Positions 8,595 to 31,205 of a stretch of 64,000 nucleotides of DNA are shown here, in pieces. This stretch comes from Algibacter pectinivorans (GTDB taxonomy: Bacteria; Bacteroidota; Bacteroidia; Flavobacteriales; Flavobacteriaceae). The number at the start of each line of letters is the position of its first letter. Position 1 is the first letter of the stretch. The translations under genes were made by a program, and so were the position numbers. The stretch is from the NCBI RefSeq assembly GCF_900112595.1, contig NZ_FOMI01000008.1, forward strand, positions 124,001-188,000, read 5' to 3'. The notes beneath the pieces were generated by a model. It was not told the origin of the DNA. It saw nothing but the letters and a program-made list of their open reading frames with translations, and searched no databases.

Positions 8595-8614
8595 GTCAAA
8601 AATTGACAAGTCAA
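8595..8614. promoter_or_regulatory. Candidate operator for the XRE controller
   Basis: Three alternating half-sites, GTCAA-AAA-TTGAC-AA-GTCAA, form two overlapping inverted repeats about 30 nt upstream of the controller ATG. This layout is like the C-boxes of restriction-modification control proteins. Binding is inferred. Confidence 0.5.
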
Positions 8615-8643
8615 CTTTTAAATAAATTTTATAATAAACATAA

Positions 8644-8928
8644 ATGATTGGTGTAAAAATAAGGCAATTACGAGAAGCAAAACAAATGCTTATTCGTGAG
8701 GTTGCAGCACAATTAAAAACCGACACGGCTATGCTTAGTAAAATGGAGCGTGGCGAACGTCCTTTTAAAAAGGAAGATATTATTGTGCTTGCAAATGTAT
8801 TTAAACAACCTAAAAAAGAATTACTAACCCTTTGGTTAGCAGACCGTATTTTAAAAAATACTTCTAACGAAGAATATACTATAGAAAGTATTCAATTGGC
8901 TTTAAAAATTGCAAAGGAAAACACATGA
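8644..8928 (+). CDS. XRE-family helix-turn-helix controller of the RM operon
   Basis: A 94-residue protein whose first about 60 residues form a Cro/C1-type HTH: IRQLREAKQMLIREVAAQL, then TDTAMLSKMERGERPF, the usual recognition-helix pattern. Its stop overlaps the mod start (ATGA-type, 4 nt), so translation is coupled. RM operons often carry such a controller to delay nuclease expression after entering a new host. The inverted half-sites at 8595-8614 are a plausible binding site. The C-terminal 30 residues are helical and may serve dimerisation. Confidence 0.85.
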   Translation: MIGVKIRQLREAKQMLIREVAAQLKTDTAMLSKMERGERPFKKEDIIVLANVFKQPKKELLTLWLADRILKNTSNEEYTIESIQLALKIAKENT

Positions 8929-10877: not shown

Positions 10878-10892
10878 AATTCTTAATTTACA

Positions 10893-13244
10893 ATGTACAT
10901 TTTAAAAGATTTTCAAGAAACAGCAGTAACCAGTTTGTTAGAAAACACCTATACTGCTTTAAAAGAACCTACCAAGCAAACCCCTATTTTATTAGAATCG
11001 CCAACAGGTTCGGGTAAAACCGTAATGATGGCGTCGTATATAGAGCGTCTGGTAGACGAGCTACAACTAAAACCAGGCTATAACAGCAATGTGGCTTTTG
11101 TATGGTTAGCACCCAACACGCTACATATACAAAGTTACCACGCTTTGCAAAATCTTTATAGCGATACCCAAAAACTAAATTGTATAGATTTAGACAATCT
11201 AGGAAGCAATCCTATATTAAACGCTAAAGATTTATTGTTTCTTAATTGGAGCAGCATACATTCTGCCAAAAACATTTGGAGAAAAGACAACGAAACCAAT
11301 ACCAACCTAGAAACCCTAATAGAAAACACACAGGCTAACGATACTAGTATAGTGCTAATAATAGACGAAGCACATTTAAGTGCTTTTAGTGGTAAACAAG
11401 CCATAGCAGTACGTAATTTAATAGAAGCAGATGTAGAAGTATTGGTAACCGCTACAGCACATAACATACAACGTCCTCAATTATCGGTATTTGTACCAAG
11501 ACAAAAAGTTGTAGAACAAGAACTTATTAAAAAAGGAATTCGTTTAAACATTGGTTTAAACCCAGAAGAGCAAAACGGAGAAAATGTACATATGCATTTG
11601 CTTCGCAAAGCCTTTCAGAAAAAAGAAGAACTAAAAGCGTTATATGCGCAAGAGTTAGGCGACAACAAAGTAAATCCGTTATTGCTAATTCAATTACCTT
11701 CAGATAACGTTTCCTTAAGTTCAGAAGACAAGTCTATTAGAGATACCTTAGTAGGGCTTTTAAATACCGAGTACAACGTAACTACCCAAAACGGAAGACT
11801 GGCTATATGGCTAAGTGGCGAAAAAGATAAAGATGGTATTGAAGACATCAATGCAATGCAAGATGTAATGATTTTTAAACAAGCAGTAGCACAAGGTTGG
11901 GACTGTCCTAGAGCAGCCGTATTGGTAAGTTATAGAACCGTAAACAGTCCTTCCTTTGGTATTCAAACCGTGGGTAGAATTTTGCGTATGCCACACCGTA
12001 AACACTACAATAACGACGATTTAAATTATGGGTATGTATATACCAATATAGAAGCCACTCGTATTAACTTTGAACCTTCTGATGCAGATTTTATTAATTT
12101 TCAATTAGCAAAAAGAAAAAAGGACAGAGGTTGGGGCTTCGATAAAATCAACTCAGCTCAAATTGTAAACGACCGTACTGCAAAAGGGGTATTAACCTCT
12201 ACCTTTCAAACGCATTTTTTCAACCTAATGGAGCAGCGTTTTAATGTAGCTATGTTGCCAGATGTAGATCTATTTACGACTGAAGTAGAGGAGAATTTAA
12301 AAGAAGCAAAAGAAGCTAATTTATTAGCAATGCAACAAAATGGTTGGGAGTTTAACGTAGACGACCACCAAATACCAATTCCTGTAGATATTGAGGCAGA
12401 CCCTTATATTGTAAATAGCATTATGGTAAATGCAGACCATACCAAGCAGTTTGCTATTACTATGAATCAGTTTAATACAATGTTCGAGCGTTTTTGTTAT
12501 GACAATATAACTAGGCTTAACCGTTCCAAAAGCTGGAAAAAACTAAGAGATGTGTTACTCTTTTTTGCCGAATATTATTTAGGATTGTTTGAGCACGAAG
12601 CCAAACGTATCTATTTATTTCCTCAAAATAGAAGATTACTAGAAGAGTTAATTGTAGTAGCATTAGAACGTTTTGAGCAATGGCAAAAAGCAAAAGGGAA
12701 TGAAAAACGAAGAGTAGAATACGCAAGTTGGGAAGTGCCAGAATATCGTTACTACAGCGAAAATTTCAACAAACAATACATAGAAAATCACGCTATGGAG
12801 CCTTTCTATGAATACATAAGTGTATCTAGCCCAGAAAAAAGATTCAAAGAATTTTTAGAAGCAAACAGCGAACATATAGAATGGTGGTACAAAAATGGAG
12901 ATGCAGGAAAAGAACATTTTGCTGTGCCTTATATCAAGCAAGCAGATGAAAAGCTAGAAAGACCTAGCTTATTTTATGTAGATTTTGTAATAAAATTCAA
13001 ATCTGGTAAAATTGGGTTATTCGATACCAAAACAAAACGTTCAGATTTAGATGCACCTAAAAAGCACAACGCACTTCTAGAGTATATAGAAAAAGTCAAC
13101 CAAGAGGCTAACAATGAAAATTTATTGGGTGGTGTGTTAATAGAAGAACCCATAGACTCTAATCATTGGAGGTTTTGTGCGAATAGAATAGAAGATACAA
13201 AAGACTTAACAGGTTGGGAGTTTTTAAAACCAGAATTACTCTAA
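10893..13244 (+). CDS. res: Type III restriction enzyme helicase/nuclease subunit (Res)
   Basis: A 783-residue SF2 helicase: Walker A in SPTGSGKT (about residues 36-43), DEAH box in LIIDEAHLS (about 158), TATAH (motif III), and later motifs QAVAQGWDCPRA and GRILRMP (motifs V and VI). The C-terminus has a PD-(D/E)xK-like segment, FYVDFVIKFKSG..GLFDTK, near residue 695. It cleaves unmodified DNA with Mod after ATP-driven communication between two sites. It starts 15 nt after mod in the same operon. Length and domain order fit the family, and no break is visible. Confidence 0.92.
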   Translation: MYILKDFQETAVTSLLENTYTALKEPTKQTPILLESPTGSGKTVMMASYIERLVDELQLKPGYNSNVAFVWLAPNTLHIQSYHALQNLYSDTQKLNCIDLDNLGSNPILNAKDLLFLNWSSIHSAKNIWRKDNETNTNLETLIENTQANDTSIVLIIDEAHLSAFSGKQAIAVRNLIEADVEVLVTATAHNIQRPQLSVFVPRQKVVEQELIKKGIRLNIGLNPEEQNGENVHMHLLRKAFQKKEELKALYAQELGDNKVNPLLLIQLPSDNVSLSSEDKSIRDTLVGLLNTEYNVTTQNGRLAIWLSGEKDKDGIEDINAMQDVMIFKQAVAQGWDCPRAAVLVSYRTVNSPSFGIQTVGRILRMPHRKHYNNDDLNYGYVYTNIEATRINFEPSDADFINFQLAKRKKDRGWGFDKINSAQIVNDRTAKGVLTSTFQTHFFNLMEQRFNVAMLPDVDLFTTEVEENLKEAKEANLLAMQQNGWEFNVDDHQIPIPVDIEADPYIVNSIMVNADHTKQFAITMNQFNTMFERFCYDNITRLNRSKSWKKLRDVLLFFAEYYLGLFEHEAKRIYLFPQNRRLLEELIVVALERFEQWQKAKGNEKRRVEYASWEVPEYRYYSENFNKQYIENHAMEPFYEYISVSSPEKRFKEFLEANSEHIEWWYKNGDAGKEHFAVPYIKQADEKLERPSLFYVDFVIKFKSGKIGLFDTKTKRSDLDAPKKHNALLEYIEKVNQEANNENLLGGVLIEEPIDSNHWRFCANRIEDTKDLTGWEFLKPELL

Positions 13245-13263
13245 AACTTAAATAGCTCACAAA

Positions 13264-14247
13264 ATGGAAAAAGGAGAAATTTTAATCTATACCAACCAAG
13301 AGGGGAACATCAAAATAGATGTGCGCCTTCAAGAAGAAACCGTTTGGTTAACCCAAGAACAAATGGCTTTACTCTTTAATAGGGATAGAAGTGTTATAAC
13401 CAAGCATATAGGTAAAATTTTTAGTGAAGGTGAGCTAGATGAAAAAAGCAATGTGCAAAAAATGCACATTAGTACTTCAGACAAACCTGTAAAAATTTAC
13501 AATTTAGATGTAGTAATCTCTGTTGGCTACAGAGTAAAGTCGCAACAAGGTACACAATTTCGTATATGGGCTACACAGCGTTTAAAAGAATACATCATAA
13601 AAGGCTTTGCACTTAATGATGAACGTTTTAAAACCGGTACGTCTATGAACTATTTTAACGAACTGCAAAACCGCATTCGTGAAATACGTATCTCAGAAAA
13701 ATTCTTTTATCAAAAAATAAAAGACATTTATGCTACCAGTATAGATTATAATCCTAAAGACGAAAAAACCATTCAATTCTTTAAAATCGTACAAAACAAG
13801 TTACTTTGGGCTATTAGTCAAAAAACAGCTGCAGAGTTAGTGTATAGGAGTGTAGATGCATCATTACCTCTAATGGGAATGTTAGCGTACGACAAAAAAA
13901 ACAAATCGGTTACCAAATCAGAAGCAGGTGTTGCTAAAAACTATCTTAACGAAGATGAAATGCGTCTACTAGGGCTTATTGTAGAACAATACTTAGCGTT
14001 TGCCGAAACAATGGTACAACAACAAACACCAATGTATATGAAAGATTGGGTACAACGTTTAGATGCTATTTTACAATTAAACGGTAGAGAGTTGTTAACC
14101 CACGCAGGTAAGATAAGTCAAGAAATGGCTAAGAATAAAGTGGCTAAAGAGTATCAAAAATACAAAGAAGAAAACAAGCGTTTGTCCTACGAAAAAAGTC
14201 TTAAAGAGTTAGAGCAAGACATTAAAAATTTAAAAGACAAAAAATAA
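13264..14247 (+). CDS. RhuM-family protein
   Basis: A 327-residue protein whose first about 120 residues match the RhuM (virulence protein) family: ILIYTNQEG, VWLTQEQMALLFNRDRSVI, HI.KIF.EGEL, and YNLDVVISVGYRVKSQQGTQFRIWAT. The first helices resemble a DNA-binding wing. The last about 30 residues are a lysine-rich coiled coil. RhuM genes are common inside Type I and III RM operons and other defence loci, but their biochemical role is not established. It begins 19 nt after res and 33 nt before the next gene, so it is likely cotranscribed. No Fic/Doc motif is visible. Confidence 0.82.
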   Translation: MEKGEILIYTNQEGNIKIDVRLQEETVWLTQEQMALLFNRDRSVITKHIGKIFSEGELDEKSNVQKMHISTSDKPVKIYNLDVVISVGYRVKSQQGTQFRIWATQRLKEYIIKGFALNDERFKTGTSMNYFNELQNRIREIRISEKFFYQKIKDIYATSIDYNPKDEKTIQFFKIVQNKLLWAISQKTAAELVYRSVDASLPLMGMLAYDKKNKSVTKSEAGVAKNYLNEDEMRLLGLIVEQYLAFAETMVQQQTPMYMKDWVQRLDAILQLNGRELLTHAGKISQEMAKNKVAKEYQKYKEENKRLSYEKSLKELEQDIKNLKDKK

Positions 14248-14280
14248 GATAATAACCTTAGTCAATATAAAAATAGTATT

Positions 14281-14499
14281 ATGAGCAACAAAGGACTAGA
14301 TTCACTATTTATACATTACGGCATACGTAAAGATGATATGGCTACCATAGAAGCCATTTGCGAAAAATATGAGGTTGAAGCCGAGTGGCTAAAAGAATAT
14401 TTCTTAAAAGCCTACCACGAGAAAAAAATTAAAAATGAAGACTTAGACGAAAAGGCATTAAAAAAGCTAATGGAAAAAGCGCTTCAAAAAATAAAATAG
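14281..14499 (+). CDS. Small alpha-helical protein of a DNA-modification/defence module
   Basis: A 72-residue, charged, all-helical protein (core ICEKYEVEAEWLKEYFLKAY, lysine-rich tail), 2 nt upstream of the SMC-like gene. I associate similar small proteins with DndD-like genes, but I cannot confirm family membership from sequence alone. The tight spacing implies it is made stoichiometrically with the SMC/HerA pair and may be an adaptor or regulator. No catalytic motif is visible. Confidence 0.65.
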   Translation: MSNKGLDSLFIHYGIRKDDMATIEAICEKYEVEAEWLKEYFLKAYHEKKIKNEDLDEKALKKLMEKALQKIK

Positions 14500-14501
14500 T
14501 T

Positions 14502-16502
14502 ATGTTAATAAAAAGAATAAGAGCTAAAAATTTTAAAACATACCTAGAACTCGATATAAATCTAGAAACAGACCCAGACAAACCTATTGTATTAATCGGT
14601 GGTGCTAATGGTGGTGGTAAAACAACTTTTTTTGATGCTATTTACGGTGCATTGTATGGCTTAAACATATCCAACGATAAAGAATTTAACGAGTTACTTA
14701 ATGCTGGTGCTTTGGGTAAAATTGAAGAAAAAATTGAATTAGAATTATTTTTTTCAGGCAGAGTACTAAACCAAGAACAGTCCTATGTGCTTACAAGAAC
14801 CTATATGCTTAATACAGCCAAAAAACCTGTAGAAAGTGTAAAACTAAATATGAATGGTTCCATTTTTCAATACGGTACTGCAACACCTACAGGGCAAAGA
14901 GCAGAACAAGAAGCGCAAGTAAATAAAATTATAAAAGGGAATCTACCTGAAGAGTTAAGTCGCTATTTCCTATTTGATGCTATGGAGGCTGGGAGCCTTT
15001 TAAAAGAAGACCGTCTTAATCGTGTAATTCGAGAAAATATTGAAAATGTTATGGGCTTCAATAGATACTTGTCTTTTGCTAAAGCAGCCGAATGCTTAAC
15101 GCAAGACTATACAGCTCAAATGCTCGATTTAGAAAATGAAAAGAAAGAATATTTACAATTAGTAGAACAAAAACGTAAAGAAGAAGAAACGTTAACCGAG
15201 TTAAAAGGAAAACGTAAAGAAGCACTAGATTTTTCAGTGTCTAATAAAGATTTGTACGATACGTTAAAGGCAGGTATGAATGAAGAATCTACACTAAACA
15301 ATAAGGTGAAACAATTAGAAGAAGAACTAAATAATCTAGATAAAGAGGAAAAGCAATACAAAACTGATGTAAACGATTTTATTAAAAATTTTGAAATGCA
15401 CGTAAGCTTACCAAAATTAGCTGAGGTATTGCAAAATGATATTGCCTTAATTATAAACGAACGTGAAACTTCAAATGCAGATGCCTACTCGCATTTAAAC
15501 AAAGAAGTGGTAGAAAACGTATTGATAAAAGCTGTAAACGTACTTGCCGATAAAGGGCACAATTTAAAAGACGTGTCAGTAAGTCAATTAGCAGATAAAG
15601 TATTAAAATCATTAGAAGATAAAAACACAGATTTAGAATACGATTATTTTCAAATTTCAGAAGTTGAAGCTTTAAAAAAATTAGCAAATGGTAATTATCA
15701 AAATCCGTACAATTCTATTACCCATCGTAAAGAAAATCTAGATAAAGATATTGCCAACGCACACAAGATTAAAAAACAAATAGAAGATTTAAAAGCACAA
15801 ATTACAGGAAAAGACTATTCTTTAATTAAAGCTTATGAAGAGAATGAAAGTGCAATTAAAACCTTGAAATCTGAAATTGAGGATAAGGATAAAGAAGTAA
15901 AAAAGATAGCAAAACGTTTACAACAATTTGATATACCAACTACAGAAGAACCAGACCCTAAATTTGAAGCTTTAAAAAAATTACAACCCTTGTTTGATGA
16001 AATAGCAAATACGCTGCTTAAAAACAAAAAAGATAAAATAGAATATAAAATGAAACATGATTTAAACGTTAATCTTGCGGCTTATCAAGATGTCATAGAT
16101 CGTGTAGAGTTATCAGAAGATTTAAAAGATTTAAACTTTAGTATTTATCATAAAGCAGGTAACGAAATCTATTTAAGTCAACTAAACACAGCGTCTACAC
16201 AAGTAGTGGTGCAAGTGTTGTTAAAGGCATTACACGAATTTGGCGATTACGACCCACCTGTAATGATAGATACAGTTATGGGGGTGTTAGATGAAACAAG
16301 CCGAAGCACCTTGTTAGAAAATTACTTTCCAGAATTATCGCATCAAACTATACTATTAAGTTCTGATAGTGAGGTAAGACCTAATTCAGATTTGCAAAAA
16401 ATAGAACCTTTTGTGGCCAAAGCATATACATTACTTAGAGATAAAGAAGCTCAAAAAACAAATGTTACAGAAGGGTATTTTGGTAATTCTATAAACAATT
16501 AA
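14502..16502 (+). CDS. DndD-like SMC/ABC-type ATPase
   Basis: A 666-residue protein with Walker A GGANGGGKTTFFDAIYGALYG at residues 33-53, a long charged coiled-coil middle (about 200-300 and 410-480) without an obvious zinc hook, and a C-terminal Walker B/D-loop region VMIDTVMGVLDETSRS (about 587). Size and order fit the DndD branch of SMC-like ATPases rather than SbcC or RecF. No sulfur-modification genes (dndC cysteine desulfurase partner and so on) lie nearby. Its stop overlaps the start of the HerA-like gene (TAATG), so the two ATPases are translationally coupled and probably form one DNA-sensing complex. Confidence 0.8.
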   Translation: MLIKRIRAKNFKTYLELDINLETDPDKPIVLIGGANGGGKTTFFDAIYGALYGLNISNDKEFNELLNAGALGKIEEKIELELFFSGRVLNQEQSYVLTRTYMLNTAKKPVESVKLNMNGSIFQYGTATPTGQRAEQEAQVNKIIKGNLPEELSRYFLFDAMEAGSLLKEDRLNRVIRENIENVMGFNRYLSFAKAAECLTQDYTAQMLDLENEKKEYLQLVEQKRKEEETLTELKGKRKEALDFSVSNKDLYDTLKAGMNEESTLNNKVKQLEEELNNLDKEEKQYKTDVNDFIKNFEMHVSLPKLAEVLQNDIALIINERETSNADAYSHLNKEVVENVLIKAVNVLADKGHNLKDVSVSQLADKVLKSLEDKNTDLEYDYFQISEVEALKKLANGNYQNPYNSITHRKENLDKDIANAHKIKKQIEDLKAQITGKDYSLIKAYEENESAIKTLKSEIEDKDKEVKKIAKRLQQFDIPTTEEPDPKFEALKKLQPLFDEIANTLLKNKKDKIEYKMKHDLNVNLAAYQDVIDRVELSEDLKDLNFSIYHKAGNEIYLSQLNTASTQVVVQVLLKALHEFGDYDPPVMIDTVMGVLDETSRSTLLENYFPELSHQTILLSSDSEVRPNSDLQKIEPFVAKAYTLLRDKEAQKTNVTEGYFGNSINN

Positions 16503-18091
16503 TGATGGAAGAAATAGCATTACATAATATAAGGCAAAGCGAAGGGTTAATTGATAGCCTATTACCTTTAAAACATAAAATTGAAAAGAAATTAAACCTA
16601 AAAGAATATCGCAAAGAAGCGAAGCAGTTAACGTTAAATAATAATTTATTACAACGTTTAACATTAGCAGCAGGTTTAAGTCAAAATCACAAACGCTCTT
16701 GGTCAGTAGTAGAAAAGGTAGCAATGGATAGTTTAAGAATCCACGAAACAACCTTTACTAAGTTCAACCTACAAGTAATGTGGTCAAGTCTTATAAAATA
16801 TCGTTATAATCAAATAGATATCGATTGGGCAGTAGCTGCTAATCGTAGTCGTATAATTAATTACGAGATGCAACAAGGCTTAAAATATTTAATGGACGAT
16901 AATAATCTTGAGAATTGGTTAACAATTACTGCAAAATCTGGTAATGCTTCATTTGGCACAGTACCATTCTTAGATTTAAATATTGGTTTATTTGAAGGAG
17001 ATATGCCTGCTACCTTAAACCTAAACGGTAGGCAAATACCAAATACACAAATATTAATTGCAGGTTCTACAGGTTCTGGTAAATCTAATCTTTTGGCGGT
17101 ATTAATGCGTGAAATACGTACATTAACAGTAGAAACAGCGTATCCAGTAAACTTTCTGTTTTTTGATTATAAAGGCGAATTTTCAGATCCTGCTAATCGT
17201 TCGTGGTTCAGCCATTTTGAAATTGATGATACAGCAATTTTAGATCCAATAAGGGAATCATTGCCGTTTTCACCGTTTAAAAACTTTGAAGGGAAAACAC
17301 AGAACGAAATAAATCTATATGCTTCTGAGTTGTCAAATGCTATCTGTGCAATAGATAATGCACGTATGAGTGCAAATATGAGTAATAGATTAGCAGAAGC
17401 AGTAATCGCTTCTTACAGAAAAACAAGGAATAAACCAATTTCTTTTCAAATAATTTTAGATGAGTACAACCATTTACAAAACAAAAAAGACCGTCTAAAA
17501 GATGATAGTATTAAGTCTGTTTTAAAACAATTAATTAGAAATAACTTATTTGCTACCGAAGATAATATAGACTTAATAAATAATAGTTTTATTGTAAAAA
17601 TGGATGGTTATCCAAAAGATGGTCCTTTGGCAAAAGCAATTGTGTACTTTATAATATCTAAGCTCAACACTATTTATGAAAAGTTACCAAAACAAGAAGT
17701 ATCGGAAGAATGTGTTGAAATCCGTCACTTTACAATTATAGATGAAGCACATTATATGCTAGACTTTGACAACAAACCTTTAAGAGGTTTAATAGCAGTT
17801 GGGCGTAATAAAGGGCTGAGTATCATTTTGGCAACACAGAATATGGATAGTTATAAATCCAAATATTTTGACTTTTATGCTAATGCTCAGTATCCTTTAA
17901 TTATGAAACAGCAATCTATTACTGATACTGTTATTAAAGATTTATTTGGGGTTTCTGGTAACGAATTTCAAGAGATAAAGGAGTCAATAGCAGGTTTAGA
18001 GTTGGGAGAATTAATTATTAAAGATGCAACAGCAATTACACTTGGTATGGGTAAAAAATTCAAGAAAATTAAGGTTGATAGATTTGTATAA
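16502..18091 (+). CDS. HerA/FtsK-like (DUF87) DNA translocase ATPase
   Basis: A 529-residue protein: N-terminal about 130-residue helical domain, a beta-rich stretch, then a HerA-type ATPase with Walker A AGSTGSGKSNLLAVL (about residue 188), FFDYKGEFSDP, Walker B HFTIIDEAHYMLD (about 415) and sensor ILATQN. HerA-like hexamers pump DNA and partner with nucleases in several phage-defence systems; the DptH component of Dnd systems is one relative. Here the coupled partner is the SMC-like protein upstream. No nuclease domain is fused. The PLD-family gene downstream (now broken) and the relic at 18084 may once have belonged to the same module. Confidence 0.8.
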   Translation: MMEEIALHNIRQSEGLIDSLLPLKHKIEKKLNLKEYRKEAKQLTLNNNLLQRLTLAAGLSQNHKRSWSVVEKVAMDSLRIHETTFTKFNLQVMWSSLIKYRYNQIDIDWAVAANRSRIINYEMQQGLKYLMDDNNLENWLTITAKSGNASFGTVPFLDLNIGLFEGDMPATLNLNGRQIPNTQILIAGSTGSGKSNLLAVLMREIRTLTVETAYPVNFLFFDYKGEFSDPANRSWFSHFEIDDTAILDPIRESLPFSPFKNFEGKTQNEINLYASELSNAICAIDNARMSANMSNRLAEAVIASYRKTRNKPISFQIILDEYNHLQNKKDRLKDDSIKSVLKQLIRNNLFATEDNIDLINNSFIVKMDGYPKDGPLAKAIVYFIISKLNTIYEKLPKQEVSEECVEIRHFTIIDEAHYMLDFDNKPLRGLIAVGRNKGLSIILATQNMDSYKSKYFDFYANAQYPLIMKQQSITDTVIKDLFGVSGNEFQEIKESIAGLELGELIIKDATAITLGMGKKFKKIKVDRFV

Positions 18092-23046: not shown

Positions 23047-24867
23047 TTATTTTTTTAAGGAGTATTTATTTTTCCATTTGTTAAATGTGTTTTCGGTTAC
23101 AGTATCTTTTAATAATTTAAAATGTTCAATAGCTTTGTTTCTACCTCCAAATTTTTCAACAGCCCATTTCTGAAGTTCAAATAAATAATCCGCTTGCATT
23201 TCTTTTGTGGTTTGGTTTGTGTTGAAGTTATATTTATCGTCTTTTAACTCTGTAACAATAGTATGGTATTTGGTGAATTCTTGTTTCGTGTAATAGAAAG
23301 GCGTCTTTTCATTCAGCATAGTTTTCGTTTCATCATCAAAATTAGAAAAAGCATTATAGTACATGGCAATTTTTTGTAAATCTCTGTAGTTTCCGTAAAG
23401 CGGTAATGTTTTTATCCATTGATTTAATTTCTCGTCATCTGGTGGTTGAGGTTTTCCTGGTAGTCTTAAATTTTTCCAAACATTAGACCAGTCTTTCATT
23501 CTATCTTCTTTGGTTTCTCTTAATGGAGGTATGTTTACAACATGTTGTACAATTCTATCATAAAAATCAGGAAGTAATAAGGTTCTTAATTCTTGAATGG
23601 TTTTGTTTGTGGCAAAAATTAATCGACATACTACTTTTATTTCTTTGCTGTCTCCCATTTTTCTGATAGACATTTTGTTATGTTCATCAGTTTGTAATGC
23701 TTTCATTAATTTAGCTTGAACTAATATAGGTAAATGGTGCACTTCATCTAAAAATAAAATTCCATTATTCGCCTCTTCAATTAATCCTTCTTTACCACCA
23801 GGTAGTCCGCCTGTGAAAGCGCCTTTATCGTACCCGAATAATTCTGATTCTGCTTTGTTGTCATCATCATTAAAGGAAGCACAATTTGCTTGAATTAACT
23901 TTCCTTTGTGTTTTAATGTTTGGCTAGCTTTACTTGCTATATCAGATTTCCCTATACCTCTTTCTCCTAGTAATAAAATGGAAAATCCAGATTCTAGAAA
24001 TACTTTCATTTTTTTATTGACGAGTTTTCTAGGGTTAGATTTTGTGTCTGAATATAAATTGAAATCTTCTCCAATGTTAGTAATAAGGTTAATAGGTATT
24101 TCTTTAATAGAGAATGGTTTAAATCTTTTTTCTTTTTTATCAGATTTATCGTCGTAAGTTTTTATAAAACGAGTATTTGAAGGTAGTTGATTAGCTTGAG
24201 ATAAAATATGCCATACCACCTGTGTCTCATTGCTTCCTAGCGAAACATTTATAATGTTTTCAGATTTTTGAAGTTTTTTATGGTCCTTTTTTAGCCATGC
24301 GTTAACTTTATTAGCAATGAGCTTTTCATTCCGCAGGTCATTTATGTCTAGCTCAACAATCTCTAGTTTATCTTTATAGATGTTATTGAAATTAGAGTAT
24401 TCTTTAAGCCATTTTAATTGCTCTAGAATAGGGTAGTGTTGTATGTTTCTCCAAATAGATTTTTTAAAAGCATCAAGTTTGTCTGGATACTTTTCTTTTA
24501 CAAATAAGAGTTCTTTGGAAAGGTTATAGCATAAATCATCGTTAGAAGTGATTTCATCATAAATGTCGCTTAGTCCTTGGATTTTTATTGTATCGTCGTG
24601 TACAATGTTTTTTTTATAACTAAATCTTCTACTTGAAAGTTTGTCGAAAGATTCTTGCTGGGTAATTAAGTAAATTACCTTGTCAAAAACAAAGCCGTCT
24701 TGATCTTTAGCGTTATCGAAAATAGTGTTCAATTCCATTTGGTTTAAGTCCTCAAAATGGAAATTTTTAGGTAAGTCATTTTCTTTTTGGTAAAAGCAGC
24801 TTAAAATATGTTTAAGATATGCGACGCCATGTGTCGTGTAATGCCAAGTGATGTATGTTTTATTCAT
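23047..24867 (-). CDS. RtcR-like sigma-54 activator with CARF-like sensor domain
   Basis: A 606-residue protein. Residues 1-240 are not a response-regulator or GAF domain. The segment INVSLGSNETQVVWHILSQA (206-225) matches the part of E. coli RtcR reading HITTGTHVAQICWFLLAEA, which belongs to its CARF-like ligand domain. Residues 270-510 are a sigma-54-type AAA+ module: Walker A GERGIGKS (301-308), the sigma-54-contacting GAFTG loop (349-353), Walker B GILFLDEVHH (369-378), and FYDRIV..PLRE arginine-finger region. The C-terminus ends in a helical, possibly HTH, region. RtcR activates RNA-repair genes on sensing RNA damage products. Here the divergent neighbours are a mini-protein and a DUF4258 gene, behind a -24-type promoter element. 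Confidence 0.8.
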   Translation of the reverse strand: MNKTYITWHYTTHGVAYLKHILSCFYQKENDLPKNFHFEDLNQMELNTIFDNAKDQDGFVFDKVIYLITQQESFDKLSSRRFSYKKNIVHDDTIKIQGLSDIYDEITSNDDLCYNLSKELLFVKEKYPDKLDAFKKSIWRNIQHYPILEQLKWLKEYSNFNNIYKDKLEIVELDINDLRNEKLIANKVNAWLKKDHKKLQKSENIINVSLGSNETQVVWHILSQANQLPSNTRFIKTYDDKSDKKEKRFKPFSIKEIPINLITNIGEDFNLYSDTKSNPRKLVNKKMKVFLESGFSILLLGERGIGKSDIASKASQTLKHKGKLIQANCASFNDDDNKAESELFGYDKGAFTGGLPGGKEGLIEEANNGILFLDEVHHLPILVQAKLMKALQTDEHNKMSIRKMGDSKEIKVVCRLIFATNKTIQELRTLLLPDFYDRIVQHVVNIPPLRETKEDRMKDWSNVWKNLRLPGKPQPPDDEKLNQWIKTLPLYGNYRDLQKIAMYYNAFSNFDDETKTMLNEKTPFYYTKQEFTKYHTIVTELKDDKYNFNTNQTTKEMQADYLFELQKWAVEKFGGRNKAIEHFKLLKDTVTENTFNKWKNKYSLKK

Positions 24868-24975: not shown

Positions 24976-24991
24976 TGGCACGATTATGTCT
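24976..24991 (+). promoter_or_regulatory. Candidate sigma-54 promoter
   Basis: TGGCACGATTATGTCT matches the -24 element TGGCACG exactly. The -12 element is weaker (TGTCT against TTGCW, the key C and following T kept) at the correct spacing. It lies between the divergent RtcR-like gene and the mini-protein gene, 41 nt before the latter's ATG. The weak -12 GC pair is a real caveat. Confidence 0.6.
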
Positions 24992-25031: not shown

Positions 25032-25175
25032 ATGAGTAAATCAAAACCAATGACAAGTAAAGCAGCATCTAGAATTCAAAGTAGTACTGCAAAAACATCA
25101 AAATCAGGAGGAGTATCAAAAGGGAGTTTTGCATCACGGGCACAAAGTGCAGCAGCTAATAGTTCTAAAAAGTAA
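25032..25175 (+). CDS. 47-residue seed-maturation-protein-like mini-protein
   Basis: The peptide is low in complexity (Ser, Lys, Ala) yet ordered: two similar halves, AASRIQSSTAKTSKSGG and GSFASRAQSAAANSSKK. The A.RIQS and GSFA.RAQSAA patterns resemble the plant SMP (seed maturation/LEA) motif, which also occurs in short bacterial proteins. No signal peptide or membrane segment is seen. It is the first gene behind the candidate sigma-54 promoter, so it is probably induced by the RtcR-like activator. It is followed by a perfect 12-bp hairpin. Function unknown; a nucleic-acid- or protein-binding stress peptide is conceivable. Confidence 0.7.
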   Translation: MSKSKPMTSKAASRIQSSTAKTSKSGGVSKGSFASRAQSAAANSSKK

Positions 25176-25185
25176 TTAATAATCA

Positions 25186-25214
25186 AATCTCGCCTTTTAG
25201 TTAAAGGCGAGATT
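25186..25214 (+). terminator. Perfect 12-bp hairpin after the mini-protein gene
   Basis: AATCTCGCCTTT pairs fully with AAAGGCGAGATT across a 5-nt loop. Only a weak T-run follows, so it may be a partial terminator or an mRNA-stabilising hairpin that sets expression of the mini-protein above that of the DUF4258 gene. Confidence 0.75.
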
Positions 25215-25234: not shown

Positions 25235-25525
25235 ATGAAAAACATCCTGAATTACAAGCTAACGCCACATTTTGAAGAACGATTAATGCAAAGGCAAATA
25301 GATCCTTTTTTAGTTTCTATGTGCCTTGTTAAAGGAGCTATGAAACCTATGGGGAGTTCTAAAGTTGAATACACATTGTCTAAGGAAGGTATTTTGAAGG
25401 CTATAGATTAAGGTTATATGTTAGCGAAAGATATTCTTTGGGTAACAAGTTTTACTGTTGTTGCCAAAGGAGATAAATTAATAACAGTTTTTGCAAAATT
25501 TGGGGATACAGGAATTACAAATTAG
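25235..25525 (+). pseudogene. DUF4258-like gene interrupted by an in-frame TAA
   Basis: The ATG at 25235 begins KNILNYKLTPHFEERLMQRQ, the (H)F..R..QR.I..F.V pattern of DUF4258. After KEGILKAID a TAA at 25409-25411 stops the frame. The same frame then continues GYMLAKDILWVTSFTVVAKG and KLITVFAKFGDTG to TAG at 25523, which is the missing second half of the family (hydrophobic strands and final VTVF). One substitution in a Glu, Gln or Lys codon would explain the stop. DUF4258 proteins are small RelE/BrnT-like folds, so a toxin or RNase-like role is possible. Here the product would be a 58-residue truncation. Confidence 0.65.
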
Positions 25526-25628: not shown

Positions 25629-27929
25629 ATGCACATATTAAAAATAATACATGGCTATCCGCCAAATTATAATGCAGGGTCGGAAGTTTATAGCCAATCC
25701 ATATGCAACCAATTATCAAAAGAAAATGCAGTTTCCGTTTTTACAAGAGAACAGAATCCGTATGCTCCAGATTTTGAAATCCGTCACCAAAAAGTAAGCT
25801 CAAATTTACATCTTTATTTTGTTAATAATCCTAATGGTAAAGATGGTTACAGGCATCAAACCATAGATGATAATTTTAAAATTTTAGTAGAAGAATTAAA
25901 GCCAGATATAGCGCATGTTGGCCATTTAAATCACTTATCTACAGGTTTAATAGATGTTTTGAATGATTTGCAAATCCCAATCGTATTTACATTACACGAT
26001 TTTTGGTTAATGTGCCCAAGAGGCCAATTTTTAACCCGTAGTATTGGTAAAGATTGTAACACGATGCTTTGTTCGGGTCAAGAGGACAAGAAGTGTGCTA
26101 CAAATTGTTACCAAGTTTATTTTAGTGGAAACAAGGAAGAGGAACAAACAGATATCGATAATTGGAGCAATTGGGTAAACCGAAGAATGCAAGAAACCAA
26201 AGTGATAATAGATAAAGTAGATTTGTTTATTGCGCCTTCTAAATATCTTCAAGATCGGTTTGTTTCCGATTTTAATATAGCAAAATCCAAAATTACTTAT
26301 TTAGATTATGGTTTTCCAACCCATTATTTAACGCAAACGGAGAAAGTAAAAACAAAAGAACTTTTCACCTTTGGTTATATAGGAACGCATATTCCTGCAA
26401 AAGGTATCGACCAATTAATACAAGCTTTTAAACAAGTTAAAACACCTGCTGTTTTAAAAATTTATGGAAGAGAAAGTGGACAAAGTACAGCGGCATTAAA
26501 AGCATTGGCTGCAACTTCAGAAAATAAAGTGGAGTTTATGGGCGAATACATTAACCATAACTTGGCAAATGATGTTTTTGCACATGTAGATTGTATTGTG
26601 GTGCCTTCTATTTGGGGCGAAAATTCACCTTTAGTTATTCATGAAGCACAAGCTTGTAAAATTCCTGTAATTACTGCCGATTTTGGAGGGATGAAAGAAT
26701 ATGTAAAGCATCAAGTAAATGGGCTATTGTTTAAACATAGAGATGTTGATGCCTTGGCAGAACAGCTAAACTTTGCAGTCTCCAATCCAGATAAAATGCG
26801 TACGTATGGAAGTAAAGGTTATTTGTTTTCAGAGGATGGAGGCGTGCCCGATATTGTAGCGCATTGTAAGCAATTAGTAAATATATATAAGCAATATACC
26901 CATACTAGTAAGTTTTGGAGAGTAACAATTGATACCAATCCGGAAGATTGTAATTTAAAATGCATTATGTGCGAGGAGCATAGTCCGTATAGTAACTTTA
27001 TAGATACGCTTTATAAAGAAACTGGTGTGAAGCGCAGACGTATGGATTTTAAAACCGTGCAACAAATTTTTGAGCAAGCGGCTGCATTGGGCGTAAAGGA
27101 AATTATACCATCTACAATGGGTGAACCGTTATTGTATAAACAATTCGATCAAATTTTTGACTTAGCGAAACAACATGATGTCAAAATTAATTTAACCACT
27201 AACGGTACATTTCCTAAAAAGTCTGTTTTAGAATGGGCTAAGTTAATAGTGCCTAATACTACAGATGTTAAAATAAGTTGGAACGGTGCTACTGCGGAAA
27301 CTTCCAAAGAAGTGATGCATGGTTTGGATTTTGAAAAAGCAATTGCTAATGTAAAAGCGTTTATAGCGTATAGAGATGCGTATTTTAAAACAAATGGGTA
27401 TTTCTGTCGTGTAACATTGCAATTAACATTTATGCAAAATAATATGCATGAATTAGTGGATATTATCAAACTAGCAGCTCAATTAGGTGTAGATCGCGTG
27501 AAAGGGCATCAGCTTTGGGATCATTTTGATGAAATAAAAGTATTGTCTATGACGGCAACTCCAGAAAGTGTAAAGCAATGGAATATTTATGTTAAACAAG
27601 CGCACGCTGCGGCAGAAACCTTTAGAAAACCAAATGGAGAAAAAGTGTTATTAGAAAACATTATTCCCATTGAAGATGATGCCGTTAAAGAGGTTCGCGA
27701 AGATTACGAATGTCCTTTTTTAGAGCAAGAATTATGGATATCTGCAACTGGTAAAATATCACCTTGTTGTGCGCCCGATAATTTAAGGCAGTCTTTAGGT
27801 GATTTTGGTAATATAAAAACAGAATCTATTCAAGACGTTTTTAATAGTAGACGCTATAAAGATTTGGTGAGTAACTATAAAACAAAAGCTGTTTGTAAAA
27901 CTTGTGTCATGCGTAAACCTGTAGCATAA
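25629..27929 (+). CDS. GT4 glycosyltransferase fused to a radical SAM/SPASM-like domain
   Basis: A 766-residue fusion. Residues 1-420 are a GT-B, GT4-type glycosyltransferase: IIHGYPPNYNAGSEVY at the start, FGYIGTHIPAKGIDQLI, and the donor-binding E-x7-E region ENSPLVIHEAQACKIPVITA. From residue about 430 comes a radical SAM domain with the cluster motif CNLKCIMC (CX3CX2C, about 440), STMGEPLLY and NLTTNGT. The C-terminus has further cysteines (ECPF, SPCCAPD, CKTCVM) suiting a SPASM-like auxiliary Fe-S cluster. Each part is familiar; the covalent combination is unusual. It overlaps the next gene by 1 nt and heads a four-gene coupled operon. Substrate unknown: a peptide or glycan modified by both domains is my inference. 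Confidence 0.87.
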   Translation: MHILKIIHGYPPNYNAGSEVYSQSICNQLSKENAVSVFTREQNPYAPDFEIRHQKVSSNLHLYFVNNPNGKDGYRHQTIDDNFKILVEELKPDIAHVGHLNHLSTGLIDVLNDLQIPIVFTLHDFWLMCPRGQFLTRSIGKDCNTMLCSGQEDKKCATNCYQVYFSGNKEEEQTDIDNWSNWVNRRMQETKVIIDKVDLFIAPSKYLQDRFVSDFNIAKSKITYLDYGFPTHYLTQTEKVKTKELFTFGYIGTHIPAKGIDQLIQAFKQVKTPAVLKIYGRESGQSTAALKALAATSENKVEFMGEYINHNLANDVFAHVDCIVVPSIWGENSPLVIHEAQACKIPVITADFGGMKEYVKHQVNGLLFKHRDVDALAEQLNFAVSNPDKMRTYGSKGYLFSEDGGVPDIVAHCKQLVNIYKQYTHTSKFWRVTIDTNPEDCNLKCIMCEEHSPYSNFIDTLYKETGVKRRRMDFKTVQQIFEQAAALGVKEIIPSTMGEPLLYKQFDQIFDLAKQHDVKINLTTNGTFPKKSVLEWAKLIVPNTTDVKISWNGATAETSKEVMHGLDFEKAIANVKAFIAYRDAYFKTNGYFCRVTLQLTFMQNNMHELVDIIKLAAQLGVDRVKGHQLWDHFDEIKVLSMTATPESVKQWNIYVKQAHAAAETFRKPNGEKVLLENIIPIEDDAVKEVREDYECPFLEQELWISATGKISPCCAPDNLRQSLGDFGNIKTESIQDVFNSRRYKDLVSNYKTKAVCKTCVMRKPVA

Positions 27930-29350
27930 TGAAACATATAAAGACTATAGAAAAGATAAAGACTATTTTACCTAGAACATCAAATATCGATGTTGCACTG
28001 TTATATGGTTCTTATGCTAGGAAAGAAGCTTTAGGGAATTCAGATTTAGATATAAAGCTTATTGTTGACGAGAATTTTGACATTCAGAACTTTATAGCGA
28101 ATATAAAAAATGGTTTAGATGAAAAAATAAAAACGGTACACTATATTAAGTTAAGAAATAAAGTTGTTGTTTATTTCAAGGAACTACCAAAGTTAGAGTT
28201 TGGTTTATGTTACAGCATAGAGGCTATAAATCGAGATTTTTTGGGATCAGAAATCTCAGAACTGAAAGACATCGTTTTGTATGAAAAAGATAAAGCGAGT
28301 ACCCAAATAGAATCGTATTTAAAACAACTTATAGCTTCTAAAAAGGATATGAATACCTCAGATATAAACAACTTGATAGATAAGTTTATATATGAGTTTG
28401 AGAGTTGTTCATCGAAGCATAGTAGGAGTGATGGTTATCAGTTTTACTATTTCTATAATATTGCTTTTCATATTGCCATTCAATTAAATTATTTAGCTAA
28501 AGGGAAGACAGCCTATTACTTTCTTCCAAAAAACTTTATGACGAGTGAACTTTCGGCAGAAGCTCAAGCTAGTTTTTCTAAATTAAATGGCACTACTTTT
28601 CTTCCAGAAGGGAATACAAGAAAAAGAGCCTTATTAGATTTCTTTTACAGTGCAATAGAACAGCTAATTCCAACTAATAAATATAAGGAGATAAAAGCGT
28701 TTTGCGAATGGGTTTACGAGCGTGACTTCTTTTGGAATTTTAGAGATGCAAATGCATTTAATACTAAAATGATAAATAATTTAGTTTATAGAACATCTGC
28801 ATTAGCTTTATTTCAAAACACAGAAGAACTAAATGTATTGCTGCGTGAAAATAACATTAAAACAATAATTGATTTAAGAGCGGATAGAGAAATAGAAGCA
28901 ATTTCATATTCAGATGAAGTTTTAAGTCAAGTCAAATACGTTAAAGCGCAATTCGATCCTTGGGATCAACCAGAATGGTTTAAAGAAAAGCATAACGAGG
29001 GTTCTAATCACGAGATTGCGTATCGTTTTTTTGCTATGGGTTGTAAAGATTCTATAAAGAAAACATTTGAAACTATTTTGGAAGAAGAAACAGGCGCTAT
29101 TGCTATTCATTGTCATGCAGGTAAAGATAGAACAGGTATCATCTTTTCATTATTACATTTACTCTTGGGATCTCCAATAGATAATTTAAATACAGATTAT
29201 TTAACGAGTGAAATGGATGTGTCTTTAGATAAATTAAAAATAGCACTTGATGTTGTAGAAAACGAAGGTGGGATTTTAAAATATTTAATGTCTTGTGGGT
29301 TAACAGAGAAGCAAATAATGGATTTAAAAATAAAGTTGCTAAATGAGTAA
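27929..29350 (+). CDS. Nucleotidyltransferase-tyrosine phosphatase fusion
   Basis: A 473-residue fusion. Residues 1-110 are a minimal nucleotidyltransferase with the motif GSYARKEALGNSDLDIKL (27-44; GS plus two Asp for metal). Residues about 130-270 are helical, like the partner domains of such enzymes. From about 285 the protein reads as a Y_phosphatase3-type dual-specificity phosphatase: NLVYRTSAL, TIIDLRADREIE and the P-loop HCHAGKDRTG (catalytic Cys near 395, Arg six residues on). The two chemistries (adding and removing phosphoryl groups) in one chain suggest processing of a phospho- or nucleotidyl-sugar or an antibiotic-like product. The start overlaps the previous stop (TAATG) and the end overlaps the next gene by 8 nt. 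Confidence 0.85.
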   Translation: MKHIKTIEKIKTILPRTSNIDVALLYGSYARKEALGNSDLDIKLIVDENFDIQNFIANIKNGLDEKIKTVHYIKLRNKVVVYFKELPKLEFGLCYSIEAINRDFLGSEISELKDIVLYEKDKASTQIESYLKQLIASKKDMNTSDINNLIDKFIYEFESCSSKHSRSDGYQFYYFYNIAFHIAIQLNYLAKGKTAYYFLPKNFMTSELSAEAQASFSKLNGTTFLPEGNTRKRALLDFFYSAIEQLIPTNKYKEIKAFCEWVYERDFFWNFRDANAFNTKMINNLVYRTSALALFQNTEELNVLLRENNIKTIIDLRADREIEAISYSDEVLSQVKYVKAQFDPWDQPEWFKEKHNEGSNHEIAYRFFAMGCKDSIKKTFETILEEETGAIAIHCHAGKDRTGIIFSLLHLLLGSPIDNLNTDYLTSEMDVSLDKLKIALDVVENEGGILKYLMSCGLTEKQIMDLKIKLLNE

Positions 29351-30308
29351 TAGAGCGTTTTTAAAATCTTTCTTTACAGAACATTGGAAATATATGACAG
29401 TAAACGCTGCTTGTAAATTAAATCTGTTTGATGTTTTAGATGAAACAGGAAAAACTAAATATCAGATAGCAAAACTATTATCTGTTCCAGAAAAAAATAT
29501 TGAATTGTTGTTGAAAGGTTTAGTAAGTATAAACTTTTTAGATGAGGTAGAAGGAAGTTACAAGTTAAATGAAAGGACTATTCTTTTAACAGAGGAACAC
29601 CCAGATTCTCTAAAATATGCTTGTTTGAATTGGTCAGGAGATCATATGGATGCCTGGATAAACTTAGATGTTTCCATTAAAACAAGTAAAAGTGCTTTTG
29701 AAAACAAATACGGAATGGGGTATTTTGACTATTTAAATCAAGATGAAGAAAAACTAAATCATTATCATAAGGCGATGTTTGCTTATGCTAAAGATGATTA
29801 CCGAAACATAATTGACGTAATTAACTTTAATATTCATAAAAGCGTAATGGATGTTGGAGGTGGTTATGGGGCTGCAATTTCTAATATAAAAAAGGATCTA
29901 CCAGATGTAGAGTGTTTTTTGTTTGATCTCGATGAGGTTATAAATAAATGCCATTTAGAGAATAACGTTAAACCTATAAAAGGTGATTTTTTTATAGAAA
30001 TACCGAAACTAGCAGAGGCTATAATATTATCTAGGGTTTTACATGATTGGAACGATGAAAAGGCAAATCAAATTATAAATAATGTTTACCAAGCGCTTCC
30101 TGAAAATGGATCGTTATATATTATTGAAAATTGTTCAGATAAGATAGGTGTAGATTTATCTCTATTATCCCTAAATATGTTATGTATGTGCGAGGGTTAT
30201 GAGCGATCGTCTTACGAGTATATCGCATTAGCAAATCAATCTAATTTTAGGTTTATGGAAGCCAAAAAACTAAATGAATTACAAACTGTATTAATATTTA
30301 AGAAGTAA
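29343..30308 (+). CDS. SAM-dependent O-methyltransferase (Methyltransf_2 type)
   Basis: A 321-residue protein. Residues 1-85 form the winged-helix dimerisation domain common to small-molecule O-methyltransferases (NLFDVLDETGKTKYQIAKLL, then LLKGLVSINFLDE). The catalytic domain has SAM-binding MDVGGGYGAAI (about 172), the acidic FLFDLDEV, and the family's LSRVLHDWNDEKA (about 232) with the catalytic His-Asp. The family methylates natural-product hydroxyls. It overlaps both neighbours (8 nt upstream, 1 nt downstream), so it works with the GT4-radical SAM and nucleotidyltransferase-phosphatase fusions. Confidence 0.88.
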   Translation: MSNRAFLKSFFTEHWKYMTVNAACKLNLFDVLDETGKTKYQIAKLLSVPEKNIELLLKGLVSINFLDEVEGSYKLNERTILLTEEHPDSLKYACLNWSGDHMDAWINLDVSIKTSKSAFENKYGMGYFDYLNQDEEKLNHYHKAMFAYAKDDYRNIIDVINFNIHKSVMDVGGGYGAAISNIKKDLPDVECFLFDLDEVINKCHLENNVKPIKGDFFIEIPKLAEAIILSRVLHDWNDEKANQIINNVYQALPENGSLYIIENCSDKIGVDLSLLSLNMLCMCEGYERSSYEYIALANQSNFRFMEAKKLNELQTVLIFKK

Positions 30309-31009
30309 TGGATTGGAGAGATATAAAAGTTTCAGAAAAGGGTAATTTTTTTATTTATAATGATGAGATACTTTTTAATAAAGAATATGATGCCGTTTTG
30401 AAATTTCATAATCCAGGAATTGCTCCTGTTAAAGATGAATCAGGTTGGTATCATATCGATATTAATGGTGTAGAAGTTTATAAGGAACGTTACGACCGAA
30501 CCTTTGGTTTTTATTTTAATCGGGCAAGTGTAATTGATGAAAGTTTATGGTTTCATATTAACGAAAAAGGAGAGCGCTTGTATAGTGAAAACTATGCTTG
30601 GACAGGTAATTATCAAGAAAACATATGTTCTGTTAGAGATTTAAACAATCAGTATTTTCATATCGATTTGGATGGAAACTCTATCTATGATTCAAAATAT
30701 AAATTTGTTGGAGATTTTAAGGATGGTTATGCTTGCGTGAAGCAACTAAATGGGTTTTATAAGCATATCGATAAAAACGGTAATTTTTTAAATAGTAAAG
30801 AGTTTTTAGATTTAGGGGTTTTTCATAAATGTTATGCCACAGCAAAAGATACAAGAGGTTGGTTTCATGTTGATAAAGAAGGTAATGAACTTTATTGCGA
30901 GCGCTATAATATGGTTGAGCCTTTTTATAATGGATTTGCCGTTGTAGATACTTTAATAAACACAAAACAAATTATTAACGAAATGGGTGTGGTTGTTTTG
31001 GATATTTAA
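30308..31009 (+). CDS. WG-like beta-repeat protein
   Basis: A 233-residue protein built of about five repeats of roughly 40 residues, each with a core like GWYHIDINGVEVY, LWFHINEKGERLY, QYFHIDLDGNSIY, FYKHIDKNGNFL and GWFHVDKEGNELY. This is the WG/KWG-type beta-repeat pattern. No signal peptide, so it should be cytoplasmic. Repeats of this type usually form a beta-propeller-like scaffold or binding surface. As last gene of the coupled operon (1-nt overlap) it could bind the substrate or hold the three enzymes together. It could also be an effector or immunity-like part; nothing in the sequence decides this. Confidence 0.8.
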   Translation: MDWRDIKVSEKGNFFIYNDEILFNKEYDAVLKFHNPGIAPVKDESGWYHIDINGVEVYKERYDRTFGFYFNRASVIDESLWFHINEKGERLYSENYAWTGNYQENICSVRDLNNQYFHIDLDGNSIYDSKYKFVGDFKDGYACVKQLNGFYKHIDKNGNFLNSKEFLDLGVFHKCYATAKDTRGWFHVDKEGNELYCERYNMVEPFYNGFAVVDTLINTKQIINEMGVVVLDI

Positions 31010-31093
31010 ATCTAATTAATACATGGGCAGTAATTTATATTTGAGAGTCAGATCTGTTTATGTAAAGTATTCGACTTCTTTAAAACAAAAAAA

Positions 31094-31116
31094 GCCAAGA
31101 ATAAAATTCTTGACTT
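31094..31116 (-). terminator. Hairpin downstream of tRNA-Met (minus strand)
   Basis: GCCAAGAAT...ATTCTTGAC forms a stem with an A-run on its left, that is, a T-run in the direction of tRNA transcription. It would terminate the tRNA-Met transcript and may have been brought in by the island. Confidence 0.7.
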
Positions 31117-31128
31117 TTCTGGTTTTAA

Positions 31129-31145
31129 TTGTAGCGAGAGCGGGG
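31129..31145 (+). repeat. Right attachment-like direct repeat within tRNA-Met
   Basis: Identical to 7942-7958 over 17 bp. It covers the T-stem 3' strand, the acceptor 3' strand and 3 nt downstream of the tRNA. Confidence 0.7.
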
Positions 31146-31205
31146 CACGATCCCGCGACCTCCGAGTTATGAATCCGACGCTCTAACCAGCTGAGCTACC
31201 TCGCC
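31132..31205 (-). tRNA. tRNA-Met (anticodon CAT)
   Basis: On the minus strand the gene begins GGCGAGGTAGCTCAGCTGG and has a D arm GCTC/GAGC, anticodon loop TTCATAA, T stem GCGGG/CCCGC and acceptor GGCGAGG/TCTCGCT. CCA is not encoded. Some features depart from the consensus: the T loop reads ATCGTGC instead of TTCRAnn, and as I number the anticodon stem, position 31-39 is an A-C mismatch. A CAT anticodon could also be the lysidine-modified Ile tRNA, but elongator Met is more likely. Confidence 0.9.

Follow-up and report, generated by a model that had tools for sequence, protein, structure and literature searches.

What do a glycosyltransferase-radical SAM fusion, a nucleotidyltransferase-phosphatase fusion, an O-methyltransferase and a WG-repeat protein do together? 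The question is raised by an operon at 25629-31009 of a 64,000-nucleotide stretch of the Algibacter pectinivorans genome (hereafter, the window), which an earlier note had described as a compact, undescribed biosynthetic or tailoring pathway carried on a genomic island. We find that its four genes represent just one of the combinations seen in a modular operon family, in which only the glycosyltransferase-radical SAM protein (GT-rSAM) and the WG protein are constant. Judged by its sequences, the family could, as our tentative first choice, be a mobile and inducible set of biosynthetic genes for a small molecule of modified sugar type.

Four overlapping genes under constraint

The operon consists of the following genes.

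25629..27929, plus strand: GT4 glycosyltransferase-radical SAM fusion with a C-terminal auxiliary-cluster domain, 766 amino acids (aa), core gene
27929..29350, plus strand: fusion of a nucleotidyltransferase (NT) and a DSP-type phosphatase (HCxAGKDRTG), 473 aa, assigned by Pfam and invariant residues
29343..30308, plus strand: COMT-type O-methyltransferase (OMT), 321 aa, optional module
30308..31009, plus strand: WG-repeat, beta-propeller-like protein, 233 aa, core gene

The coordinates given in the earlier note are correct, with overlaps of 1, 8 and 1 nt, and Pfam agrees with its domain assignments for all four genes. GT-rSAM matches Glycos_transf_1 (2.8e-30), Radical_SAM (8.1e-13) and SPASM (5.9e-11), the NT-phosphatase protein matches Polbeta (8.4e-10) and Y_phosphatase3 (1.5e-27), the OMT matches Methyltransf_2 (6.8e-40), and the last protein matches WG_beta_rep (3.9e-07), with a single stretch above the cut-off.

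Residues E331/E339, C441/C445/C448 and C695/C713/C714/C756/C759 of GT-rSAM are invariant in 19 aligned sequences. They provide the EX7E of a GT4 domain and the CxxxCxxC of a radical SAM domain, followed by the C-terminal cysteine motif CX9-15GX4C of twitch/SPASM domains (here C695-x12-G708-x4-C713, invariant in the same 19 sequences). We take EX7E, CxxxCxxC, CX9-15GX4C and the other motifs named here to mark activity, and the C-terminal domain to be presumably a twitch rather than a SPASM domain. The NT-phosphatase protein has S38/D39/D41 (S-D-x-D), H394-C395 and A397-G403 (HCxAGKDRTG) invariant in 21 aligned sequences, and the OMT has H234-D235-W236 invariant in 16. Relative to the homologues in locus L009, the ratio of nonsynonymous to synonymous substitution rates (dN/dS) is 0.077 for GT-rSAM, 0.133 for the NT-phosphatase, 0.154 for the OMT and 0.240 for the WG protein. 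Since the expected activity residues are invariant and dN/dS is low, all four are maintained as working genes.

A modular family with a constant core

A contig scan gave 95 stretches and 92 relatives. We tabulated 80 of the latter together with locus L006 and the window (82 loci), and counted modules in the 62 loci with at least 4 kb downstream, excluding the 20 with less. A module was scored as present when its profile, built from these same loci, matched anywhere within the stored locus. The near-duplicates L028 and L030 were both kept in these counts.

The GT4 and radical SAM parts are constant across the 82 loci: 55 encode them in a single gene and 24 in two genes, and the remaining 3 have the GT cut off. 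The WG protein is present in 62 of 62 loci, on the same strand as the GT gene in 61 (opposite in L073), and is the last module in 53. A phosphatase of either of two unrelated folds occurs in 58 of the 62: tyrosine-type (PTP) in 26, histidine phosphatase HisP1 in 28 and HisP2 in 6. Optional modules are the OMT (26 loci), the NT (18) and a carbamoyltransferase (CarbT, 10). Neighbouring modules overlap or sit at most 20 nt apart in 195 of 217 pairs, and WG and OMT, separate genes in the window, are fused in L048 (4993-6654), L058, L107 (14298-15992) and L108 (10227-11936). Given the homologous operons elsewhere, the tight spacing of modules and the dN/dS values (0.08-0.24), the operon is not a chance arrangement.

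The earlier note would have given up the idea of a pathway had homologues always occurred separately; synteny is instead strong. Its biosynthetic or tailoring operon thus stands as regards tight packing and location on an island. Its fixed set of four genes does not, as 32 of the 62 loci have the tyrosine-type phosphatase replaced by a histidine phosphatase and 36 lack the OMT.

Among 148 other relatives of this genome, none had a match to GT-rSAM at 1e-40 or to the NT-PTP protein at 1e-15, and GT-rSAM was found at 1e-50 in 2 of 395 genomes of the phylum, A. pectinivorans included. Cultured, named carriers include Winogradskyella ludwigii and Lacinutrix mariniflava. In one locus, L084, the cluster (6281-17462) is enlarged: it contains two radical SAM genes and also encodes an APH-family kinase, a histidine phosphatase, a PTP and a carbamoyltransferase; two of its adjoining open reading frames (ORFs) resemble what may be a split aldolase.

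Exchange of modules

The two kinds of phosphatase tend to exclude each other: PTP and histidine phosphatase co-occur in 2 of 62 loci, against 14.3 expected. OMT and CarbT co-occur in one locus against 4.2 expected (p 0.025, uncorrected for kinship). Co-occurrences were computed both with and without the near-duplicates. On a tree of the radical SAM domain (77 rows, 65 scored for phosphatase type and 70 for OMT and CarbT presence), a minimum of 10 changes is needed for the phosphatase type, 16 for the presence of OMT and 8 for that of CarbT. Because the folds exchanged are unrelated, the phosphatase step would most easily be understood as the removal of phosphate from a small molecule. The same tree separates proteobacterial, myxobacterial, phage WO and Arsenophonus rows from those of Bacteroidota, Planctomycetota and Chloroflexota (100/100), where phyla are taken from record titles, some of them of metagenome-assembled genome bins; WO and Arsenophonus are long branches that meet.

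Likenesses of the enzymes

The predicted model of GT-rSAM has a mean pLDDT (predicted local distance difference test) of 82, with a poor stretch at residues 125-149. The GT half of this model is nearest to sucrose-phosphate synthase, glycogen synthase, MshA, GlgM and BshA, and its radical SAM half to SuiB, a structure solved with its precursor peptide. A profile of the radical SAM part alone also has SuiB as its best solved match (1.7e-05), followed by weak matches (0.003-0.006) to an Fe-S radical SAM protein, 7-carboxy-7-deazaguanine synthase, BtrN and cytosylglucuronate decarboxylase. By profile, the NT is nearest to lincosamide nucleotidyltransferase (2.6e-06) and falls below the curated cut-offs of the MntA and HalB nucleotidyltransferases (24.7 of 60 bits and 18.4 of 190 bits). 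The phosphatase is nearest to PtpB, of the Y_phosphatase3 type, and the OMT to an entry named only Methyltransferase and to CalO6. The WG protein had no match to the PDB by sequence. Its predicted model is of high confidence (pLDDT 95.9) and Foldseek matches it to beta-propellers, BamB and designed ones among them, with a query TM score of about 0.5 and root mean square deviations mostly of 7-8, for which reason we call it no more than propeller-like.

A divergent activator and a promoter motif

The following features, on which the earlier note is silent, lie upstream of the operon and are part of the same unit.

23047..24867, minus strand: sigma-54 activator of the RtcR/PspF (CARF-AAA-HTH) type, divergent from the operon, assigned by PADLOC and hhalign
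24976..24991, plus strand: sigma-54-like promoter motif TGGCACGATTATGTCT, with a good -24 half (TGGCACG) and a degenerate -12 half
25032..25175, plus strand: 47-aa hydrophilic peptide, SMP-like (Pfam SMP 0.013, below cut-off), in the same place in L008 and L009 only
25235..25411, plus strand: DUF4258-like ORF that ends early (Pfam DUF4258 0.0065, below cut-off)

The activator matches the PADLOC profile RtcR_PspF1--CARF_AAA_HTH at 5e-74 over residues 172-587, and Escherichia coli RtcR (hhalign) at 7e-28 over residues 173-457, with 28% identity over 276 columns. The AAA domain and the second part of CARF align with RtcR and no match covers residues 1-170, which means that only part of the domain supports the assignment to CARF. 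A sigma-54 AAA activator occurs in 37 of the 59 loci with at least 2.5 kb upstream, in 35 of these as a divergent one only, and the N-terminal region of the window's activator was found by profile in 19 of the 59. RtcR-like activators unlinked to Rtc, often near restriction-modification systems, were already noted in 2014, in the accessible text of PMC4012209.

In 20 of the 37 loci the -24 half of the promoter, TGGCAY, faces the operon no more than 200 bp from where the activator starts, and in 5 it lies on the opposite strand (L028 dropped); dinucleotide shuffles gave a mean of 2.6 and a maximum of 9 in 500. RpoN is encoded in the A. pectinivorans genome. The full sigma-54 consensus was tried as a signal and set aside as weak, with sites scoring at least 22 in 12 of 38 regions against 7 on the reverse strand. 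A terminator within the upstream region was likewise rejected: the hairpin at 25186-25214 is listed for the minus strand only, and such sites are no commoner than in shuffles. The DUF4258-like frame (25235-25525) is interrupted by an in-frame stop at 25409-25411, and its homologues in L008 and L009 have 96 aa.

Island, defence genes and mobility

The right edge of the island is marked by a tRNA gene.

31131..31205, minus strand: tRNA-Met at the right island edge, adjoining the homology boundary

In the 8 congeners examined (of 9), homology ends at 31076-31129 of the window, at this tRNA gene (blastn, pieces of at least 120 nt). The left edge is probably to the right of 6491, because congeners share the gene at 5124-6491 (relatives in 7 of 9). 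In genome G004 the relative of this gene and the right-hand neighbour share a contig, about 57 kb apart against 25 kb here. None of the 9 congeners has the activator at a threshold of 1e-30. Between 8925 and 22997 the island carries genes for an N6_N4 methylase, a ResIII helicase and RhuM, a pair of AAA_23 and HerA-like genes, and a pair of AAA_5 and McrBC genes.

The flanks of the other loci are rich in matches to defence genes, a setting that the earlier note does not mention. PADLOC matches at 1e-20 or better amounted to 124 families among 141 flank genes and 2 among 130 control genes, these being counts of PADLOC families, many of them redundant, and not of genes. The flank genes were 141 of 325 eligible ones, from 55 loci (L028 and L030 dropped), and include a kinase beside the viperin of L074; the control genes were 130 of 134 from 15 fixed stretches of relatives' genomes, unmatched in taxonomy. 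The matches listed include type I methyltransferases, GajA and LmuA/LmuB. The four operon proteins themselves gave weak matches only against PADLOC 2.0.0 (best 1.3e-09), and the WG protein gave none.

In L031 and L056 the operon includes a gene for a prokaryotic viperin (pVip); in L074 such a gene precedes the GT gene and is accompanied by one of thymidylate-kinase type. By profile the other loci have no strong match to pVip, and the 1.3e-09 match of the window's GT-rSAM to it is a general radical SAM likeness. Candidate viperins in L021, L046 and L084 were weak (1e-8 to 1e-13) and were not counted. Two loci lie on viral contigs. In L106, whose radical SAM part is identical to that of L067 from Carboxylicivirga, the operon and a sigma-54 AAA gene stand between a GH108 lysis-type gene and an integrase; L105, a contig with RusA, has GT-rSAM and WG.

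Relation to described systems

The only records matched in tblastn searches with GT-rSAM (1e-60) were two of Wolbachia phage WO, among 50,697 from phages, and three of Arsenophonus, among 72,556 from plasmids. The core of the window's operon is the core of the Undecim Cluster of phage WO (WD0611-WD0621). The GT-rSAM homologue there is 46% identical over residues 1-766, and the ORF that follows it has WG (3e-90) and OMT (4e-17) domains, as does the ORF next to GT-rSAM in the Arsenophonus record examined. The two systems differ in the rest: by profile, the 26-kb stretch of phage WO has no sigma-54 activator or phosphatase. Its other genes include those for an NTP transferase, an epimerase, a PhyH oxygenase and an ABC transporter, as well as beta-eliminating-lyase genes. 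Of the eleven genes UC1-UC11, the window's operon shares GT-rSAM, WG and the OMT domain only.

The accessible text of PMC9203015 describes UC3 (WD0613) as a glycosyltransferase/radical SAM fusion and proposes for the cluster exopolysaccharide or lipopolysaccharide (LPS) synthesis and export of antibiotics or cytotoxic compounds, among other roles; its main text does not use the term 'WG repeat'. The functions of the cluster are stated to be unknown in the accessible part of PMC12801941. The earlier note's view of an undescribed pathway is not supported as it stands: a homologous GT-rSAM fusion is in print, in a cluster that, as far as these sources go, lacks a known function. In an open-access literature search, with most subscription papers outside its scope, we met no characterised cluster that combines these four genes, and the Undecim Cluster is the only described relative that we recognised. 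The radical SAM conflict systems of PMC7159879, going by its accessible text, are other systems than this operon.

Two further comparisons can be made. The rtc RNA repair operon also has a divergent sigma-54 activator, with which the window's activator aligns in the AAA domain and second CARF part; its enzymes differ, as those of the window's operon have other domains than RtcA or RtcB. The MshA and sucrose-phosphate synthase pathways share the GT4 fold with GT-rSAM; they glycosylate a phosphorylated acceptor and then dephosphorylate it. To our knowledge, neither has a radical SAM or WG partner.

A possible cassette for a modified sugar

The gene content of the family, its conservation, module swapping, motif enrichment, defence-gene setting and mobility are established. 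From these sequences, the likeliest product would be a modified sugar-type small molecule made on demand, and its likeliest use would be defence against phage or competitors. Several lines of evidence point to such a product: WG in 62 of 62 loci and a phosphatase in 58, the rarity of loci with both PTP and histidine phosphatase together with the 10 or more switches between them, the structural neighbours of the GT half, the radical SAM profile, and the likeness of the NT to lincosamide nucleotidyltransferase. The NTP transferase, epimerase, oxygenase and ABC genes of the phage WO relative, and the APH-family kinase and CarbT of L084, fit it too. The inducible, defence-linked part is read from the genomic setting and the switch, and is suggested by the activator, TGGCAY, RpoN, the PADLOC-rich flanks, the loci with pVip and the integrase of L106.

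The cassette might work as follows. By analogy with RtcR, a ligand arising from RNA damage or infection would bind the CARF domain of the divergent activator and lead to opening of the sigma-54 promoter that faces the operon. The GT4 domain would then transfer a sugar from a nucleoside diphosphate sugar to a phosphorylated small acceptor, like sucrose-phosphate synthase and MshA, and the phosphatase, of whichever fold the locus has, would take off the phosphate. The linked radical SAM enzyme would oxidise, epimerise or otherwise remodel the sugar part. An O-methyltransferase or a carbamoyltransferase would cap a hydroxyl, and in loci with an NT domain this may adenylylate either an intermediate or the product. 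As the constant partner, the WG protein is probably a scaffold or product binder.

Several observations weigh against this proposal. Concerning the chemistry, Pfam annotation finds no sugar-nucleotide gene in the window's operon, 4 of the 62 loci lack a recognised phosphatase, and the radical SAM profile matches BtrN (0.004) and cytosylglucuronate decarboxylase (0.006) weakly, its best match, SuiB, being an enzyme that acts on peptides (substrate as given in entry titles). Concerning the switch, 22 of 59 loci lack a sigma-54 activator by profile, including the close relatives L007 and L010. The full sigma-54 consensus scores barely above the reverse strand and shuffles (20.6, 19.0 and 18.3), and the TGGCAY test was devised once the output of the whole-consensus scan was known.

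Alternative functions

The alternative that survives best, though we regard it as unlikely, is the tailoring of a surface glycan, in which the operon would decorate LPS, capsule or exopolysaccharide and so alter phage receptors or host contacts. GT4 enzymes, OMTs and carbamoyltransferases are usual in surface-glycan loci. This alternative would agree with the exopolysaccharide or LPS synthesis proposed for part of the Undecim Cluster (PMC9203015, accessible text). The operon modules that we identified include no flippase, polymerase or lipid-linked transferase, some neighbouring genes being unannotated, and neither the radical SAM enzyme nor the exchangeable phosphatase is explained.

Quite unlikely is the modification of a peptide or protein, with the radical SAM and GT enzymes having as their substrate either a small peptide from an upstream gene or the WG protein. 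The likeness to SuiB speaks for it, as do the short hydrophilic peptides upstream of several loci and the constant presence of WG. We clustered the small ORFs near the operon (L028 and L030 dropped), followed their families and listed hydrophilic ORFs for the remaining loci. A precursor peptide beside the operon, which the earlier note had proposed to look for, did not emerge as a general feature: there are four unrelated families (N-rich in 13 loci; SMP-like, acidic and NNPPKPKK-tailed in 3 each), none is universal, and many loci have none that we found. The family thus lacks the mark of a cluster for ribosomally synthesised and post-translationally modified peptides, namely a precursor peptide beside the radical SAM gene in all members. 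The N-rich peptide occurs in 3 of 395 genomes, one with GT-rSAM (G342) and two (G451 and G432) with no GT-rSAM match at 1e-20 and no operon modules around it; it was not found in 60 relatives, in a search that had no positive control. The WG protein, for its part, is predicted to be a confidently folded protein of 233 aa. With four families, none of them universal, and the N-rich one also present without GT-rSAM, the peptide explanation stays a rival.

Some details of these peptides can be added. The N-rich ones have 44-55 aa and lie directly upstream of the GT gene (L012 7628-7771, L044 7835-7972, L067 7655-7792 and ten further loci), and distant relatives occur elsewhere, for example in L128 next to an AAA gene that by eye has the look of MoxR. 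Those ending in NNPPKPKK are tiny and lie 145-149 nt upstream of the GT gene in L011, L034 and L041. The SMP-like peptide was considered as a core part and rejected, being present in 3 loci only and, among 60 relatives, in A. pectinivorans alone.

We consider it improbable that the enzymes modify or mend tRNA or other RNA damaged during infection. An RtcR-like switch would suit this role, and some nucleotidyltransferases and phosphatases act on RNA; the constant enzymes, however, are outside the families known to us to act on RNA, and RtcA and RtcB are absent among the mapped modules, neither having been searched for separately. Finally, islands do gather unrelated genes, but cargo without a common function has a negligible chance of being right. 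It is contradicted by synteny: WG is present in 62 of 62 loci, the modules are closely packed, GT is fused to rSAM and WG to OMT, and the family recurs in several phyla.

What the family may mean

The sugar-cassette proposal can be taken further, to a form that is bolder and doubtful. The family may be an unrecognised class of inducible chemical immunity, in which a CARF/sigma-54 switch would sense RNA damage linked to infection and lead to a glycosylated, radical-SAM-remodelled antiviral metabolite, sometimes together with viperin, its core being reused by phage WO and insect symbionts in the Undecim Cluster. This would join three things that are unlinked in the papers we found: the orphan core of the Undecim Cluster, the RtcR-type activators and the defence islands of free-living bacteria. 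The metabolite, if there is one, would stem from an unusual glycosyltransferase/radical SAM/phosphatase logic. Since cultured strains carry the operon, experiments on the Undecim core need no longer be confined to an intracellular symbiont, and chemical immunity, if true, would give the Undecim Cluster a function.

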